Source: a virus
IMG/VR virus record: IMGVR_UViG_3300025418_001025
Location: 1 to 23,476 of that record
Reading direction: 5' to 3' (one strand)
DNA: 23,476 nt
Made by a program: the position numbers and the translations under genes. This document shows positions 5,621 to 12,041 of the stretch, piece after piece (within the stretch, counting starts at the first letter, position 1; every line of letters begins with the position of its first letter). The notes beneath the pieces were generated by a model. The model made no database searches, had not been told where the DNA came from, and saw nothing but the letters and a program-made list of their open reading frames with translations.

Positions 5621-5960
5621 CTATTCAGACATTGTGAGCCGACTAAGAACCACATGGGGCGATGCTGAAGCTGAATGCGATGCGGCGGATTCCTTAGAGG
5701 CGCAAGCAAAGAGGATCGTGGAATTAGAACATCAACTAAAATTCGAGTGCGATACCTATCTCTGGAACCGCAAACGAATGTCAAGACGCATTGCGCTGTT
5801 AGAATATTGGATGGAGAGACTGTTCAAATACGGCAGTTCGCCGGAAGCAAAACGCAATGAACTGACAATGACAACAGAGATACCAGATTCTTTGATTAGA
5901 GAGGGTGAGGATATCTTGCAGCATCTTGAGGAAAAATCAGATTTGGAGAGCGGAGAATGA
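5613..5960 (+). CDS. Coiled-coil small protein starting at TTG
   Basis: The start at 5613 is a TTG. It is supported by GAGG eight bases upstream and by the resulting MTDYSD N-terminus, which is identical to that of the paralogue at 5957 and close to MTDYAY of the methyltransferase fusion at 6800. The 115-residue protein reads DIVSRLRTTWGDAEAECDAA and SLEAQAKRIVELEHQLKFE, the usual layout of this phage coiled-coil family, followed by a basic patch (NRKRMSRRI) and an acidic end. The TTG start probably lowers its translation relative to ATG neighbours. Confidence 0.6.
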   Translation: MTDYSDIVSRLRTTWGDAEAECDAADSLEAQAKRIVELEHQLKFECDTYLWNRKRMSRRIALLEYWMERLFKYGSSPEAKRNELTMTTEIPDSLIREGEDILQHLEEKSDLESGE

Positions 5961-6166
5961 CTGACTATTCAGATTTGCTTTTCCGCTTAGATTTCGGTGA
6001 CGATGCTATAATTGCATTGCAAATCCGCATTCGTAAACTAGAGGCAGCGTTAAAGCCATTCGCCTACTATGCACAACAGATACCCGATGACGTTAGCGAT
6101 ACGGCATCTGCATCTGGAACTGTTGGCGACCTACGCCAAGCTCGTAAGGTATTGGAGGGAAAATGA
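5957..6166 (+). CDS. Coiled-coil small protein, paralogue of the gene at 5130
   Basis: A 69-residue protein with ATGA junctions on both sides. It combines the MTDYSDL start of the gene at 5613 with the KLEAALKPFA and LRQARKVLEGK parts of the gene at 5130. It therefore looks like a hybrid of two series members, consistent with unequal recombination within the cluster. No enzymatic motif; function unknown. Confidence 0.62.
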   Translation: MTDYSDLLFRLDFGDDAIIALQIRIRKLEAALKPFAYYAQQIPDDVSDTASASGTVGDLRQARKVLEGK

Positions 6167-6609: not shown

Positions 6610-6803
6610 TGATGCAAAAGAAAACTGCTAAACAAAAGAACAATGAAGAAGCTGAGAAGGGTTCAACTGCGCGATACTGCAAATGCACAAGCCTTGCGAC
6701 ATTAGGAGTCGGGCATGATCGGCGCACAAAGTTTAATCCAGAGGGCGTAGAAAGATGGCTATGCCAGTATTGTTTTGATAAAGAAAAAGGGGAAAAGATA
6801 TGA
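6609..6803 (+). CDS. Small putative zinc-binding protein, 64 residues
   Basis: Begins at the A of the preceding TAA (a second ATG follows at 6612) and ends in a four-base overlap with the methyltransferase fusion. The N-terminus is Lys/Gln rich (KKTAKQKNNEEAEKG). The rest has four cysteines in two pairs, YCKCTS and LCQYCF, with the spacing C-x-C and C-x2-C, which could bind one zinc ion. GVERWLCQYCF resembles the second knuckle of small zinc-finger proteins. The tight overlap suggests co-translation with the fusion. Role unknown. Confidence 0.6.
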   Translation: MMQKKTAKQKNNEEAEKGSTARYCKCTSLATLGVGHDRRTKFNPEGVERWLCQYCFDKEKGEKI

Positions 6804-7957
6804 CTGACTACGCTTACGAAATTCACGATCTGGCTTTACTATTCCCACCAATGGGAAGGGTTGATTTCTATCAGTTATTGGTGGACATGCAGAAAAACGG
6901 TTTAGTTGAGCCGATTACTATTTATCAGAATAGAATCTTAGATGGTCGTAATAGATACAGAGCTTGCGAACAATTAGGGATAGAGCCTCATTTTATTGAT
7001 TATGAGGGGAACGATCCTCTTTCATTTGTTGTTTCAAAGAATTTATCACGCAGACATTTGAGCGAGTCCCAGCGCAGCATGATTGCTGGACGTATTGCTT
7101 ATATGAAGCCTGGCGGCACTGGCGCCAATCAACATAATACGAGCAGCTCTGCAAATTTGCAGAGCAGCATTTCTCAATCCGAGGCAGCTAAAAAATTAAA
7201 TGTATCAACTCGTTCAGTTTCAAGTGCTAGAAAGGTAATAGATACAGGTAATGAAGAATTAATTAAAGCGGTTGATAGCGGAGACTTGACTGTATCTGTT
7301 GCTGAAAAGATAGCTAAACTCCCAGAGCAAGATCAAAAGAAAGTTTTAGAATCTAAAAAACCAGCCGTAGATATTAAGAAAGTTGCCAGAGAAAAAAAGG
7401 AACGCGAGTTAGCCGCCAAACAAAAAGCATTACCAAATAGAAGATACGGCGTTATCTATGCTGACCCTGAGTGGAAGTTTGAAACTTACTCAGAGGACGG
7501 CAAGGATAGATCGGCTGAGAACCATTACCCAACGAGCACAACTGAAGAAATAGCATTAAGGAATGTCCCCTCTATTGCTGCGCAGGACTGTGTATTGTTT
7601 TTGTGGGCGACAGTCCCTATGTTACCAGATGCTTTAAGGGTTATGCACTCTTGGGGGTTTAAGTATAAGTCTCATCTTATATGGAATAAGGATAGACCCG
7701 GAACTGGCTATTGGTTTCGTAACAAACATGAGTTATTATTGGTTGGAACAAAGGGTAACATCCCTGCACCGGCGCCTGGCGGCCAGTGGTGGTCTGTTAT
7801 GGATGCGCCTGTTGGGAAGCACTCTGAGAAGCCGCATAAGGTTTACGAGTTAATCGAGAGCTATTATCCTAATGTTCCAAAGGTAGAATTAAACGCAAGA
7901 AACAAGAGGGACGGATGGTCCGTTTGGGGTAACGAAGCACCTGATAATGATGAATAA
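6800..7957 (+). CDS. ParB-like domain fused to MT-A70 adenine methyltransferase
   Basis: A 385-residue fusion. Residues about 10-100 form a ParB/Srx-like N-terminal domain (GLVEPITIY, ILDGRNRYRACEQLG, VSKNLSRRHLSESQRS). Residues 125-170 hold a helix-turn-helix (SQSEAAKKLNVSTRSVSSAR), as in KorB/ParB. A basic linker (KKVAREKKERELAAKQK) leads to an MT-A70 domain from about 213: YGVIYADPEWKF with the catalytic tetrad as DPEW (222-225), DCVLFLWATVPML, NKHELLLVGTKG and the C-terminal GWSVWGNEAP. MT-A70 enzymes transfer a methyl group from SAM to adenine N6. In phages this architecture is often used to protect or mark DNA. The canonical tetrad is DPPW; the E is a change at an active-site position. 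Palindromic site 2 lies within codons 115-123. It is coupled by overlap to the small zinc protein upstream. Confidence 0.9.
   Translation: MTDYAYEIHDLALLFPPMGRVDFYQLLVDMQKNGLVEPITIYQNRILDGRNRYRACEQLGIEPHFIDYEGNDPLSFVVSKNLSRRHLSESQRSMIAGRIAYMKPGGTGANQHNTSSSANLQSSISQSEAAKKLNVSTRSVSSARKVIDTGNEELIKAVDSGDLTVSVAEKIAKLPEQDQKKVLESKKPAVDIKKVAREKKERELAAKQKALPNRRYGVIYADPEWKFETYSEDGKDRSAENHYPTSTTEEIALRNVPSIAAQDCVLFLWATVPMLPDALRVMHSWGFKYKSHLIWNKDRPGTGYWFRNKHELLLVGTKGNIPAPAPGGQWWSVMDAPVGKHSEKPHKVYELIESYYPNVPKVELNARNKRDGWSVWGNEAPDNDE
7143..7168. repeat. Palindromic site 2 of 3, inside the ParB-like/MT-A70 gene
   Basis: Arms of 13 bases pair except at 7145/7166 around the AAA|TTT centre. It encodes SSSANLQSS in the linker between the ParB-like domain and the helix-turn-helix. 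It shares 24 of 26 aligned bases or more with sites 1 and 3, which are non-coding, so coding constraint alone does not explain the repeat. Confidence 0.8.
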
Positions 7958-7967
7958 GGAATAAAAA

Positions 7968-9476
7968 ATGTCTGGAGAATTACGCCCATATCAAAAAGAG
8001 GCGATTGAACAACTACGTCTAGCACTAAGCGAGAAATTAAAACCAGTTTTGTCGGCGCCTACGGGTTCAGGCAAGACCCGTATTGCGTCTGAGATATTTG
8101 CCCTAGCCAGATCAAAGAATAAGAGGGTTTGCTTTGTCGTTCCCTTTATTTCTTTGATCAATCAAACGTGGAAGGCGTTTGTCAATGCTGGCATAGATGA
8201 GCGTGAAATGTCAGTCATACAGGGCAACCACATACTGACTGATTATTCTATGCCCGTTCAAATAGCGTCGATTGATACATTAGCGCGCAGAAAGAAATTG
8301 CCGGAAGCTGATATTATTATCTTCGACGAATGCCATAAGAAAAGCGTTGTTCATACTAGATGGATGCTAGAGTCCCCCAACTCTACATTCATTGGTTTGT
8401 CAGCAACGCCCTGGGCAAAAGGCATGGGCGCCATATGGGACAAAATGATTATTGTCTCGACGCCAAAGAAGCTAATCGACGAGGGCTATTTATCCAATTT
8501 TAGATACTTTGCCCCATCCAGCCCCGATCTTTCGGAAGTTAAGATCATTGCTGGTGATTATCAAACAGATCAGCTTGCATCAGCCATGAACAAGCCCGAG
8601 CTTGTCGCGGATGTTGTGACAACTTGGATGAAGCGCGGTGAGGACAGACCCACGTTTTGCTTTGCCGTTGACTGTTCTCATGCGAGGGCATTGCAGAGCC
8701 AATTCATACAGGCTGGCATTCCGGCGGCTTACATTGATGCTGAGACACCCGTTAAAGAGCGCGAAGATTTGGTAGATAAACTCCGTTATGGGGAGATAAA
8801 GATTATCTGCAATGTTGGCACAATGACGACAGGCGTAGATGCGCCGTTTGTTTCGTGCCTTATCATCGCTAGGCCAACAAAGAGCGAGATGTTGTATGTT
8901 CAGATCGTTGGCAGGGGCCTGAGAAAGTGTGAGGGTAAAGCGGATTGTTTGATCCTCGATCACAGTGACAATGGCATACGGATGGGTTTGCCTGATCAAA
9001 TTGAGTATTTCGACTTCTCTGATAAACCCGCAGAGGAGAAGCGCGTTGCAGAGCGTAAGAAGCGTGAGCGCAAACTAACTCCATGTCCATCCTGCCAGTT
9101 CCTAAAGCTGCCTAAAGAGAACGAGTGCCCATCTTGTGGGTTTGCGCCAAAGCATTCCAGCAATGTGATCTACATAGACGGGGATCTTGTGGAGCATGGC
9201 CGCAACGGTAAAATAGCCCTATCCACCAGAGCCGAAAAGCAAGAGTTCTGGTCAGGTCTTTTGTATTACGCCAAGGAGCGTAATTATCAGCGAGGCTGGT
9301 GCAGCCACAAATACAAAGAGAAGTTTGGTGTATGGCCGCAGGGATTGGTTGACTATGAAACCTATCCAACCCAGACCGTCCTCAACTTCATTAAGTCAAG
9401 AAACATCGCATGGGCCAAGAAAAAGAACAAACGTGAGAAGATTAGGGCTTTTGGCAATCTGATGGAGATCAGATAA
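7968..9476 (+). CDS. DEAD/DEAH-box (SF2) helicase with C-terminal zinc ribbon
   Basis: A 502-residue superfamily 2 helicase. It has an N-terminal Q-like motif (LRPYQKEAIEQL), Walker A SAPTGSGKTR (residues 29-38), DECH (120-123), LSATPW (144-149), a helicase C domain with VGTMTTGVDAP (282-292), and motif VI VQIVGRGLRK (311-320). A CPSC-x10-CPSC zinc ribbon follows (Cys373, 376, 387, 390). The last 110 residues are basic and Trp/Tyr rich (YAKERNYQRGWCSHKYK). Relatives in phages unwind branched or duplex DNA in replication and recombination. AAGGA lies nine bases before the start. It is the last gene of the rightward early operon, ending right at the repeat block. No primase or polymerase gene is visible nearby. 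Confidence 0.92.
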   Translation: MSGELRPYQKEAIEQLRLALSEKLKPVLSAPTGSGKTRIASEIFALARSKNKRVCFVVPFISLINQTWKAFVNAGIDEREMSVIQGNHILTDYSMPVQIASIDTLARRKKLPEADIIIFDECHKKSVVHTRWMLESPNSTFIGLSATPWAKGMGAIWDKMIIVSTPKKLIDEGYLSNFRYFAPSSPDLSEVKIIAGDYQTDQLASAMNKPELVADVVTTWMKRGEDRPTFCFAVDCSHARALQSQFIQAGIPAAYIDAETPVKEREDLVDKLRYGEIKIICNVGTMTTGVDAPFVSCLIIARPTKSEMLYVQIVGRGLRKCEGKADCLILDHSDNGIRMGLPDQIEYFDFSDKPAEEKRVAERKKRERKLTPCPSCQFLKLPKENECPSCGFAPKHSSNVIYIDGDLVEHGRNGKIALSTRAEKQEFWSGLLYYAKERNYQRGWCSHKYKEKFGVWPQGLVDYETYPTQTVLNFIKSRNIAWAKKKNKREKIRAFGNLMEIR

Positions 9477-9620
9477 ATAAGCATGCTTTTTCTGATGCAA
9501 TTTACTCAATGAAAATAAGCATGCTTTTTCTGACGCAAAATAAGCATGCTTTTTTAGTTACAGATTTGATCGTTAAGGAATAAGCATGCTTTCTTACTCA
9601 CAAAAAAGCATGCTTTTGTT
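9477..9620. repeat. Iteron-like array, five copies centred on GCATGC
   Basis: Five copies of AAATAAGCATGCTTTTT-like units, all in one orientation, have GCATGC at 9481, 9519, 9544, 9584 and 9608. Centre spacings are 38, 25, 40 and 24 bp. Each has the 10-bp palindrome AAGCATGCTT or a close form. The block is AT-rich and starts one base after the helicase stop. It could be an origin, a cluster of protein-binding sites, or a recombination hot spot. Confidence 0.85.
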
Positions 9621-9622
9621 AG

Positions 9623-9805
9623 TTAAGATTTCATTTCTGCGCGTATGGACTTTATATTTATGTCGTCCATATTGTCTACAAGGCGCAAGATTTCAGTAAC
9701 TATTTCTTGCGCCTCATCCTTGTCAATGGCGTCTACTAAATACTCCCTTAATTGAGGCGAGGATTTTTTAATACATCCTGTTGCTGTAACAAGGTATTTT
9801 GGCAT
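9623..9805 (-). CDS. Small hypothetical protein, 60 residues
   Basis: Start at 9805 is chosen over the ATG two codons upstream because AGGA then sits seven bases before it. The product MPKYLVTATGCIKKSSPQL (first part) continues into an acidic helix (AIDKDEAQEIVTEILRLVDN). The N-terminal strand with LVTATG suggests a small alpha/beta domain. No family recognised. The gene ends directly beside the five-copy GCATGC array and begins 20 bases after the stop of its neighbour. Confidence 0.58.
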   Translation of the reverse strand: MPKYLVTATGCIKKSSPQLREYLVDAIDKDEAQEIVTEILRLVDNMDDINIKSIRAEMKS

Positions 9806-9825
9806 TTCCATATCCTGCTATTGTA

Positions 9826-10155
9826 TTACATAAACTCCGGGCCTAACGGTCTGGAGTCTTCTATTTCTCTAAGGATTGAATCTTCATACCTATTGAGAAG
9901 CGCATCTTCTATAAGACCATAGAGGGGATTGGAACCGTCTAAATTAAGCGGCGACTCTCCCTTTTTAATGTTGTATATAACGATACTGTTGACAGAATAA
10001 ATAATGCCGCCGGGGCATCCGCTGTAAGCGTCCCCGTCATCTACCTCCCAACTTATTTCTGCCTCTCCCTCAACGAATAGCATATGATCTTTGTATGGGC
10101 GTAGTTCCTCAAATGTATAGGTAATGTCGCCGCTACTATCGTTTCTGTGTCTCAT
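9826..10155 (-). CDS. Acidic hypothetical protein, 109 residues
   Basis: Start at 10155 follows GGAG by eight bases; the frame extends further upstream only through the repeat, where it would spell part of the GCATGC unit (KKHAYFG). The protein is acidic, with beta-rich segments (DHMLFVEGEAEISWEVDDGD, then GGIIYSVNSIVIYNIKKGES) and a C-terminal helix. No motif recognised. Its 5' region, from the repeat through GGAGATA, is the same as that of the next gene upstream (10454), so the two share an expression module. Confidence 0.58.
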   Translation of the reverse strand: MRHRNDSSGDITYTFEELRPYKDHMLFVEGEAEISWEVDDGDAYSGCPGGIIYSVNSIVIYNIKKGESPLNLDGSNPLYGLIEDALLNRYEDSILREIEDSRPLGPEFM

Positions 10156-10167
10156 TGTTTTATCTCC

Positions 10168-10186
10168 AAAATAAGCATGCTTTTTT
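10168..10186. repeat. Single GCATGC repeat copy between two small genes
   Basis: One copy (GCATGC at 10175-10180), of the same orientation as the others, lies between the stop of the 10454 gene, which it touches, and the ribosome-binding site of the 10155 gene. Confidence 0.8.
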
Positions 10187-10454
10187 ATTGGCAAAATCCA
10201 TATAGATAAGCCTCTGCGGGTAGTGCATTTACAGGCATTGCTTCGAGTAGCTTTGCTATTTCTTCGCGTGTCCCTTCTCGACCCTCCTCGAACATGGATT
10301 GATTGTCATCAGATATATGGGACATTGCATACCATCGACGTTTGCCTTCAACGTAAGTTAAAACCCAATACTCATTTGGGTTATCCGTGTTAAAATCATA
10401 GTCGTGATAATTATCAAACCGATTACTAAGACCTGCAAAACGATATTTTGTCAT
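10185..10454 (-). CDS. Small hypothetical protein, 89 residues
   Basis: Start at 10454 is set by GGAGATA about eight bases upstream; the longer open frame runs back through three copies of the GCATGC repeat and is unlikely to be translated. The protein is polar, Tyr/Asp/Asn rich at the N-terminus (SNRFDNYHDYDFNTDNPNEY), then WVLTYVEGKRRWYAMSHIS with a likely beta hairpin, then an acidic helix (REEIAKLLEAMP). No family recognised. The stop codon overlaps the next repeat copy. Confidence 0.58.
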   Translation of the reverse strand: MTKYRFAGLSNRFDNYHDYDFNTDNPNEYWVLTYVEGKRRWYAMSHISDDNQSMFEEGREGTREEIAKLLEAMPVNALPAEAYLYGFCQ

Positions 10455-10466
10455 TGCTCTATCTCC

Positions 10467-10536
10467 AAAATAAGCATGCTTTTTTCTATGCAAAATAAGC
10501 ATGCTTTTTCTGACGCAAAATAAGCATGCTTTTTTT
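10467..10536. repeat. Iteron-like array, three copies at exact 25-bp spacing
   Basis: GCATGC at 10474, 10499 and 10524 gives two intervals of exactly 25 bp. The last two units and the stretch between them match copies 2 and 3 of the 9477-9620 array over about 43 bp, which makes the two arrays direct repeats about 1 kb apart that flank three small genes. Confidence 0.85.
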
Positions 10537-10545
10537 CTATGTAAA

Positions 10546-10767
10546 TTATTCAGTCCAGCAAACGCGCTGGCCGTTTCGGTATTCGCAAGCGGTCTGATTT
10601 CCATGAGTCTGCGGAATCTGTTGGTAATAAGATCCCGTCATAGATTGCTGTTCCTGCCAACCTTGGCGGCTGGTTTGTGGGATCTGTTGATATTGGTATT
10701 GCTCCCATGAGTGCGCCGGGCCGTTTGTGGCGCCTAATACAAGCGCGACAGCTACAAGTTTTTTCAT
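10546..10767 (-). CDS. Small secreted protein with YQQIPQT repeat
   Basis: A 73-residue protein with a clear Sec signal peptide: basic MKK, hydrophobic LVAVALVLGA, then GPAHS with likely cleavage near residue 20. The mature part is Gln/Tyr rich and contains YQQIPQT twice (residues about 26-32 and 48-54), then CEYRNGQRVCW near the end, whose two cysteines could form a disulphide in the periplasm. AGGAG lies about ten bases before the start. Prophage-encoded secreted proteins of this type may modify the envelope or act in host fitness; the true role is unknown. No lipobox was seen. Confidence 0.7.
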   Translation of the reverse strand: MKKLVAVALVLGATNGPAHSWEQYQYQQIPQTSRQGWQEQQSMTGSYYQQIPQTHGNQTACEYRNGQRVCWTE

Positions 10768-10898: not shown

Positions 10899-11042
10899 AC
10901 ATTGTCCCGGTGCGCTATCCCCGGTTGACGGGGAATCTTCCCCATGGGTGTTCTAAAAATCATGATTACATTGCCAAGCCTTGGATTGATTGATATTTAT
11001 TCAAGAGGCGATTCTTTTCGTCTTTTCTCCAGAATAGACTAG

Positions 11043-11077
11043 CGGCCGCCAGGTTCACTTGGCGGCCGTCTTTTATT
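11043..11077 (+). terminator. Rightward terminator candidate 3
   Basis: A GC-rich 9-bp stem CGGCCGCCA/TGGCGGCCG (11043-11051 with 11060-11068) is followed by TCTTTTATT. It abuts the stop of the leftward peptidase gene. Read leftward the tail is CTAGTCTATTCT, a poorer U tract, so it may also act weakly for the leftward operon. Confidence 0.6.
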
Positions 11078-12041
11078 AATAGCCTAAAATATCGGCTGTA
11101 GAGACTCCAAATTGCTCTAGATAGTCTGCGACAGCATCCGGCCTAGATAGGCATAGGGACAGCAAAGACTCGTAATCATAGGCGCCAGTGGATGACTTGC
11201 GCCCATCTAATGGCGAGTCATAAAGCCAATTATCGTCCTCAGAATAATAATCAGACCATGAGTCTTTGGTGTTTGGATCCCGCTCGATTACAAGCCTGGA
11301 AACGTCCAGAGAGCATAACGAGTCTAATAGATCGACAGCAAAGCCTATATCCTGAGACTCTGCACGACTATGGGCGCCGCTATAACCGACCGACAGATTA
11401 GAGCATTCGGGGATAATATCAGTATAATTTGCTGTATCAGTAAAGAGGCCGGTATCATCAGGCTCGTAGCTGCCGGGCAATTGCGAGGCGATAGACAGCG
11501 CAAAAGCGTTAGAGGCGCATATATGCTCTTGCCTGGTTATGACGCTGCTATAGCCCTTTCTGTCCAGCGCAATGGCTATCTGAATGCCGTCCAGTAAATG
11601 GCGCTCATGCTTGGCGATATGACTAGAACCTAGGCCGCCAGACTCTTCTAATCTGTGAAAGATATAATGGCCGGGAATCTGGCGCTTTATCATATGGCGC
11701 ATAAGCCATACGCCTGTAGCATCATCTGCGCCAAGGCAATTTGAGGCGATTTCTATAGGCGCAAGCCTGACATGATTATTATCTATAATGATGGATTGAT
11801 TGCCAGCGTATGAGTGAACGGAATCAGTGTGACTAGTCCACAAAATTGGCGGCGCGGCATTGCCGCCAACTGTGATATATCTATTCCCGAATCCATCAAT
11901 CTGCATGCCCGGCAAAGAGTCGATATAGGTAGCAATGAATCTCTTTTCTGTCCGACTATTGGCGACTCGTCGTGTTCCTAGCATTTCGATTAATTCTTTT
12001 AGGGCTGCGTTTGTATTGTGCTTTACTATTGAATAGGACAT
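11076..12041 (-). CDS. Zinc-dependent exopeptidase-like protein (M20/M28/M42 clan)
   Basis: A 321-residue protein with the metal-ligand pattern of clan MH di-zinc peptidases, in order: SHTDSVH (His71, Asp73), NCLGADDATG (Asp106 as bridging ligand), HRLEESGGLGS (Glu132 as base, Glu133 as ligand), ALDRKG (Asp160) and YSGAHS (His224). These enzymes remove N-terminal amino acids or cleave dipeptides. The set of ligands looks complete, so it is probably active. No signal peptide, so it should act in the cytoplasm, unusual beside phage genes. It is the last gene of the leftward operon, 23 bases after the 523-residue protein, with an AGGAACAAGCGCC leader. It could supply amino acids during infection or process a specific peptide; neither is shown. 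Confidence 0.82.
   Translation of the reverse strand: MSYSIVKHNTNAALKELIEMLGTRRVANSRTEKRFIATYIDSLPGMQIDGFGNRYITVGGNAAPPILWTSHTDSVHSYAGNQSIIIDNNHVRLAPIEIASNCLGADDATGVWLMRHMIKRQIPGHYIFHRLEESGGLGSSHIAKHERHLLDGIQIAIALDRKGYSSVITRQEHICASNAFALSIASQLPGSYEPDDTGLFTDTANYTDIIPECSNLSVGYSGAHSRAESQDIGFAVDLLDSLCSLDVSRLVIERDPNTKDSWSDYYSEDDNWLYDSPLDGRKSSTGAYDYESLLSLCLSRPDAVADYLEQFGVSTADILGY

Follow-up and report, generated by a model that had tools for sequence, protein, structure and literature searches.

The stoperators of L5-type (Cluster A) mycobacteriophages are short, repeated, asymmetric sites whose orientation follows transcription; they are found in short intergenic spaces and are thought to halt elongation (PMC9283540). 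In Cluster K mycobacteriophages, conserved repeats with an inverted-repeat character, the start-associated and extended start-associated sequences, lie just upstream of start codons, and their function has not been established (PMC3203893). Two types of origin iterons are also relevant, namely those of phage lambda, which are bound by the O protein and lie as repeats in the replication region (PMC3985674), and those of RepA_N systems, including repeat 3 of the Vibrio PLE, which are semi-palindromic direct repeats with a poly-A tract (PMC7145576). The phage array analysed here shares these features of sequence, position and orientation with the four systems, and some of its copies lie inside a replication gene. 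It differs from the L5-type stoperators in that its sites have a palindromic core, form one cluster, occur also inside genes and are common to unrelated phages, and in that an HTH_3 search found no repressor gene over the cut-off in 21 of 24 array phage records. The Cluster K elements have another sequence and accompany many genes in one phage cluster, whereas the present motif forms a single cluster in many lineages. In contrast to the lambda iterons, it comes with no recognised common initiator and no helical phasing, and relatives with the same helicase or primase lack it; in contrast to the RepA_N iterons, none of the 24 array phage records contains a RepA_N protein over the cut-off.

The stretch of DNA analysed (hereafter named the window) comprises the 23,476 bases of an IMG/VR virus record and represents a fragment. 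Nine copies of AAATAAGCATGCTTTT(T), all in the same orientation, were located between positions 9475 and 10533, with cores starting at 9479, 9517, 9542, 9582, 9606, 10173, 10472, 10497 and 10522. An earlier, sequence-only reading had listed nine GCATGC positions in this region, each of which proved to be exact on recheck. Seven of the nine copies match AAATAAGCATGCTTTT exactly, the copy at 9602 (AAAAAAGCATGCTTTT) bearing one change and the copy at 9578 (GAATAAGCATGCTTTC) two. The GCATGC hexamer alone is unremarkable (18 occurrences in the window versus 11.0 expected), and the meaningful unit is the cluster of 16-mers, not the hexamer. Since the core AAGCATGCTT is palindromic, the orientation of the copies rests on the flanks. 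On the minus strand AAGCATGCTTATT is read in eight of the nine copies, the remaining one being symmetric, and the reversed pattern gave no matches in the window, in agreement with the single orientation that had been proposed. Consecutive copies are spaced 38, 25, 40 and 24 bp apart in the first cluster and 25 and 25 bp apart in the second, which confirms the regular 25-bp distance described for the three copies at 10467-10536. The AT-richness attributed to the array (0.60-0.67, compared with 0.54 for the window) and its adjacency to a helicase gene, which ends at 9476 with the first core directly after it, were also verified.

This gene (7968-9476, plus strand) encodes an SF2 helicase (phrog_16; ResIII and Helicase_C). 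Repeat 1 (9475-9490, minus strand, where it reads AAAAGCATGCTTATTT) occupies the convergent intergenic space, and is followed on the same strand by repeat 2 (9513-9528), repeat 3 (9538-9553), which is 25 bp from repeat 2, and repeat 4 (9578-9593), whose core is exact and whose flanks carry the two changes. No strand can be assigned to repeat 5 (9602-9617), the symmetric copy. Four small genes without family match are encoded on the minus strand, at 9623-9811, 9826-10155 (109 aa, with repeat 6 in its leader), 10185-10454 (89 aa, with repeats 7-9 in its leader) and 10546-10767, the last one being the upstream neighbour of the array. Repeats 6 (10169-10184) and 7 (10468-10483), both on the minus strand, end their cores 17 nt before the ATG codons at 10155 and 10454, respectively, with GGAG close after the repeat in each case; the two leaders are nearly identical and both read AAAAAAGCATGCTTATTTTGGAGATARARCAATG. 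Repeats 8 (10493-10508) and 9 (10518-10533) are on the same strand, and the latter overlaps the spacer of a weak promoter-like sequence, TTTACA-17-TATTTT (10517-10545, minus strand; 9/12), although the number of such sequences found is at chance level for the region. The sibling contig 3300006123_000122, whose helicase is 100% identical, carries the same nine sites and extends about 2.4 kb further on the left. Elsewhere in the window, positions 1525-2166 encode a GcrA-family protein with an apparent second HTH stretch and relatives in seven other array contigs, positions 2073-2576 a small protein consisting only of DnaA domain IV (Bac_DnaA_C), which is absent in 22 other array phage records, and positions 6800-7957 a ParB-like N-terminal region with an HTH, fused to an MT-A70 methyltransferase.

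Occurrence of the motif in other phages was analysed by scanning IMG/VR. A first scan for two close copies returned six contigs, including the sibling mentioned above, and a wider pair scan returned many more, with many Pseudomonas-type pairs bearing C/G flanks. When A/T flanks were required in the paired motif, 25 stretches were retrieved, whereas the control palindromes AAGTGCACTT, AAGCTAGCTT and AACGATCGTT gave 0, 2 and 0 stretches in the same pattern. Twenty-one loci were sorted by gene content, yielding 14 groups; the motif, with 3-10 copies, is shared by about 14 gene-content groups of unrelated phage contigs, and also by the cultured genus Myosmarvirus (Serratia and Erwinia phages). Nearly always, the copies in contigs of 28-96 kb are confined to a single cluster, whose length varies between a few hundred bases and about 4 kb. 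This cluster usually adjoins primase, helicase or polymerase genes, such as those for AAA_25 primase-helicases, NrS-1-like primases, VapE helicases, DUF5906, D5 and Prim-Pol proteins, and for type B polymerases that, judging from their family and gene size, belong to the protein-primed type. No replication gene was recognised near the array in two groups (G012 and G039), and the sites of G012 are the same as those in L127, a Lactobacillus hominis contig. The matches listed in a pair search of a genome collection were mostly single pairs with other flanks, and the single sites seen in a Chlorobiaceae phage and in an Enterococcus phage are likely due to chance. Pseudomonas phages and genomes very commonly contain paired CAAGCATGCTTG sites at a distance of 23 bp (L135-L249 and several of L017-L134), and we take those of phages and prophages to be, probably, repressor operators. 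They have the same 10-bp core as the present sites and also come in pairs, but differ in their C/G flanks, in having two or three copies about 23 bp apart and in their setting. In Bradyrhizobium genomes (L072, L077, L097 and L104), paired ACGAAGCATGCTTCGT palindromes were observed about 23-27 bp apart.

The genus Myosmarvirus was found by BLAST with the window array. Two or three copies of AAAAATAAGCATGCTTTGTA are present in the six phages with a complete array (in phage WR01 the array is cut at the record end), and these copies have stayed identical despite divergence of the intervening DNA. The array is located 3' of the primase operon, and the small genes that it faces run leftward in most annotations; wherever the terminal repeat has been annotated, the array is inside it. 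The window and Myosmarvirus have a common layout, consisting of a replication operon, the array and convergent small genes.

The motif itself is under selection. The 21 loci contain 132 exact cores, of which about 90 are free, about two exact copies per contig being forced by the search, compared with only four A/T-flanked one-mismatch cores near the arrays. In six orthologous primases the motif occurs at eight aligned places, where it is translated in three reading frames (KSM, KHA and KAC) and replaces otherwise conserved residues (e.g. EIEAGFV by EIKACFI, and LKRCPKTP by IKSMLLTP); these sites have been gained and lost by substitution. Because conserved primase residues are overridden in three frames, selection acts on the nucleic acid. 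When the sites are oriented by the local genes, A replaces T in the 3' flank in 26% of them and T is present in the 5' flank in 3%; the fully asymmetric sites are polarised along these genes, with 38 pointing one way and two the other (eight groups versus two). Sites located at most 26 nt upstream of a Shine-Dalgarno sequence plus start codon are enriched (18 of 132, where 3.7 were expected) and are present in 9 of the 14 groups (2.7 expected), a contrast inflated by a background made up mostly of coding positions; some of the matches counted, in L284, are spurious. In this phi29-like contig the two outer copies lie upstream of a promoter and not between promoter and gene. Its minus strand at 11040-11625 (G034) contains, in this order, the motif, a perfect parS palindrome (TGTTTCACGTGAAACA) and a TTGACA-17-TATAAT promoter, and the whole set is present twice in about 420 bp. 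An ORF of a GcrA-bearing phage contig (L259, 14902-14920; G022) begins with ATGTTTCACGTGAAACA, which is also a parS palindrome.

The phages that carry the same site differ in their primases, polymerases and probable hosts, which points to a common reader, and some factor probably does read the shared motif. The statement that no matching binding protein is obvious was borne out, and no protein family is common to all groups; in an all-against-all blastp comparison no protein was present in every group. Individual candidates were discarded: the GcrA-like protein was found in eight contigs only, the DnaA_C protein in the window only, ParB_N in one of 23 array phage records, and a lambda-type HTH_3 repressor over the cut-off in three of 24, although an HTH_3 gene adjoins the array in both group B contigs. 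RepA_N was rejected with no record over the cut-off, and the primase with Nipunavirus relatives that lack the motif. A host regulon was also discarded: of 385 genomes from the class of an Azospirillum MAG, six contained matches to the motif, at one or two places in each. The motif may be read by a protein of the host or of a mobile defence system, or by a phage protein that has diverged beyond recognition.

The functions that had been put forward for the array include a replication origin made of iterons and, as an alternative, a cooperative repressor array. We tentatively favour a polarised regulatory (operator or roadblock) array over origin iterons, with a probability of roughly 0.45. Under this explanation AAAAAGCATGCTT(A/T)TT would be the sequence-specific recognition site of one trans-acting factor. 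The sites form one strand-polarised cluster that extends over the early or replication region, with copies in leaders just before the Shine-Dalgarno sequence, within genes and at operon ends. The bound factor would most likely gate expression by holding back or stopping RNA polymerase in a stoperator-like manner. The small leftward operon would be its target in the window: two genes of this operon have repeats 6-9 in their leaders, and repeats 1-5, at the operon's end, would keep leftward transcripts out of the convergent helicase operon. We infer that the motif is bound in its DNA form by a protein, which would affect transcription and be the same factor in every phage. The regulatory array is supported by the 38:2 polarity, the Shine-Dalgarno enrichment, the near-invariant core, the Myosmarvirus footprint, the result with control palindromes, the primase codons, the similar leaders of repeats 6 and 7, the layout common to the window and Myosmarvirus, and the stoperator precedent, and it does not need helical phasing. 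The repressor-type array of the sequence-only reading fits at least as well as iterons, because of strand polarity and the position of sites before Shine-Dalgarno sequences, but the HTH_3 repressor that operators of the lambda CI/Cro type would call for was found over the cut-off only in the three records mentioned. Several copies deep inside the primase gene also speak against regulation, as do the two copies upstream of the promoter in L284, the clustering of the sites, whereas stoperators are spread over the genome, and the lack of a repressor family common to the array phages in the HTH_3, ParB_N and GcrA searches.

It is possible but doubtful that the array works like the four lambda iterons with their O protein, an initiator binding to it, opening the DNA and loading the replisome of the phage. 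The proposal was right in that this is an array of specific sites, directly repeated in a single cluster per genome in the 28-96 kb contigs, and beside or inside primase, polymerase or helicase genes in most groups. The array is within 38 bp of one contig end in the phi29-like contig and in the terminal repeat of Myosmarvirus, its semi-palindromic sites with an A-tract resemble RepA_N iterons (PMC7145576), and in 13 long contigs, which are not independent, it lies nearer the GC-skew minimum than expected (mean circular distance 0.155 versus 0.25). However, in the window the array coincides with a local maximum of the skew, which follows gene direction, and the phasing that had been claimed is absent (vector strength 0.15 at 10.5 bp for 70 spacings), phasing being common rather than universal for iterons. 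The array is retained within phage group A. The refuting condition that the sequence-only reading had named goes against an origin in the window, as the array is not kept in four relatives of the window with helicases 53-60% identical and terminases of the same family 49-54% identical, which have other genes there. It was not found either in a further relative with a 48% identical helicase, or in phages with a 53% identical primase (Nipunavirus PaMx25 and DoCa3). L378, which is related to the window by its terminase, contains about twelve tandem 11-bp units of TAAACCGCCAA at 5830-5980. No common initiator was recognised, given the RepA_N result and a DnaA_C protein seen only in the window, itself a fragment, but an initiator of an unfamiliar family is possible. 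TTATNCACA-type DnaA boxes were absent from the window; the arrays of the 21 other loci have four such boxes nearby, L257 accounting for two. AT-richness is not a consistent property of the array regions (median percentile 0.62), and polarity and Shine-Dalgarno adjacency are left unexplained by iterons. A role of the sites as decoys or sensors, aimed at a DNA-binding protein that is widespread in hosts or defence systems, is improbable. Such a role would explain why unrelated phages share them with no common phage protein and why their presence varies among relatives, and the near absence of the motif from the 385 genomes of the Azospirillum MAG's class means that it is no ordinary host regulon site there, but a sponge would work without a fixed place, polarity or position in leaders, and no candidate protein was found. 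Polarity and Shine-Dalgarno adjacency would also suit an RNA-level element, in which transcribed copies serve as leader signals through a binding protein or through mutual pairing of the self-complementary motif, and in the predicted fold of the window leader two copies pair with each other (-23.8 kcal/mol, z -2.9). We regard this as quite improbable: the same core would not become fixed in unrelated phages through pairing alone, a promoter follows some copies and others are at a convergent junction, and Rfam gave no family, the only gathering-level match being one tRNA in L255 with the others far below. The motif was not among terminator-like matches, and a terminator was discarded. The three 25-bp copies at 10467-10536 do look like recent tandem duplicates, but chance or functionless duplication is hardly credible against the control palindromes, the primase codon evidence and, in Myosmarvirus, sites that are more conserved than their spacers.

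We did not find a shared cis-element of this kind described, and a literature search on the 10-mer was uninformative. Regulatory and origin sequences of phages normally vary by lineage, whereas here one short site recurs unchanged. It is conceivable, if rather unlikely, that one conserved factor, of the host or of a mobile defence system, reads a single, nearly invariant 16-bp signal in unrelated phages of different bacterial phyla, and that the signal controls their early or replication region. With their two or three identical sites, the cultured phages of Myosmarvirus make this question accessible to direct experiment.
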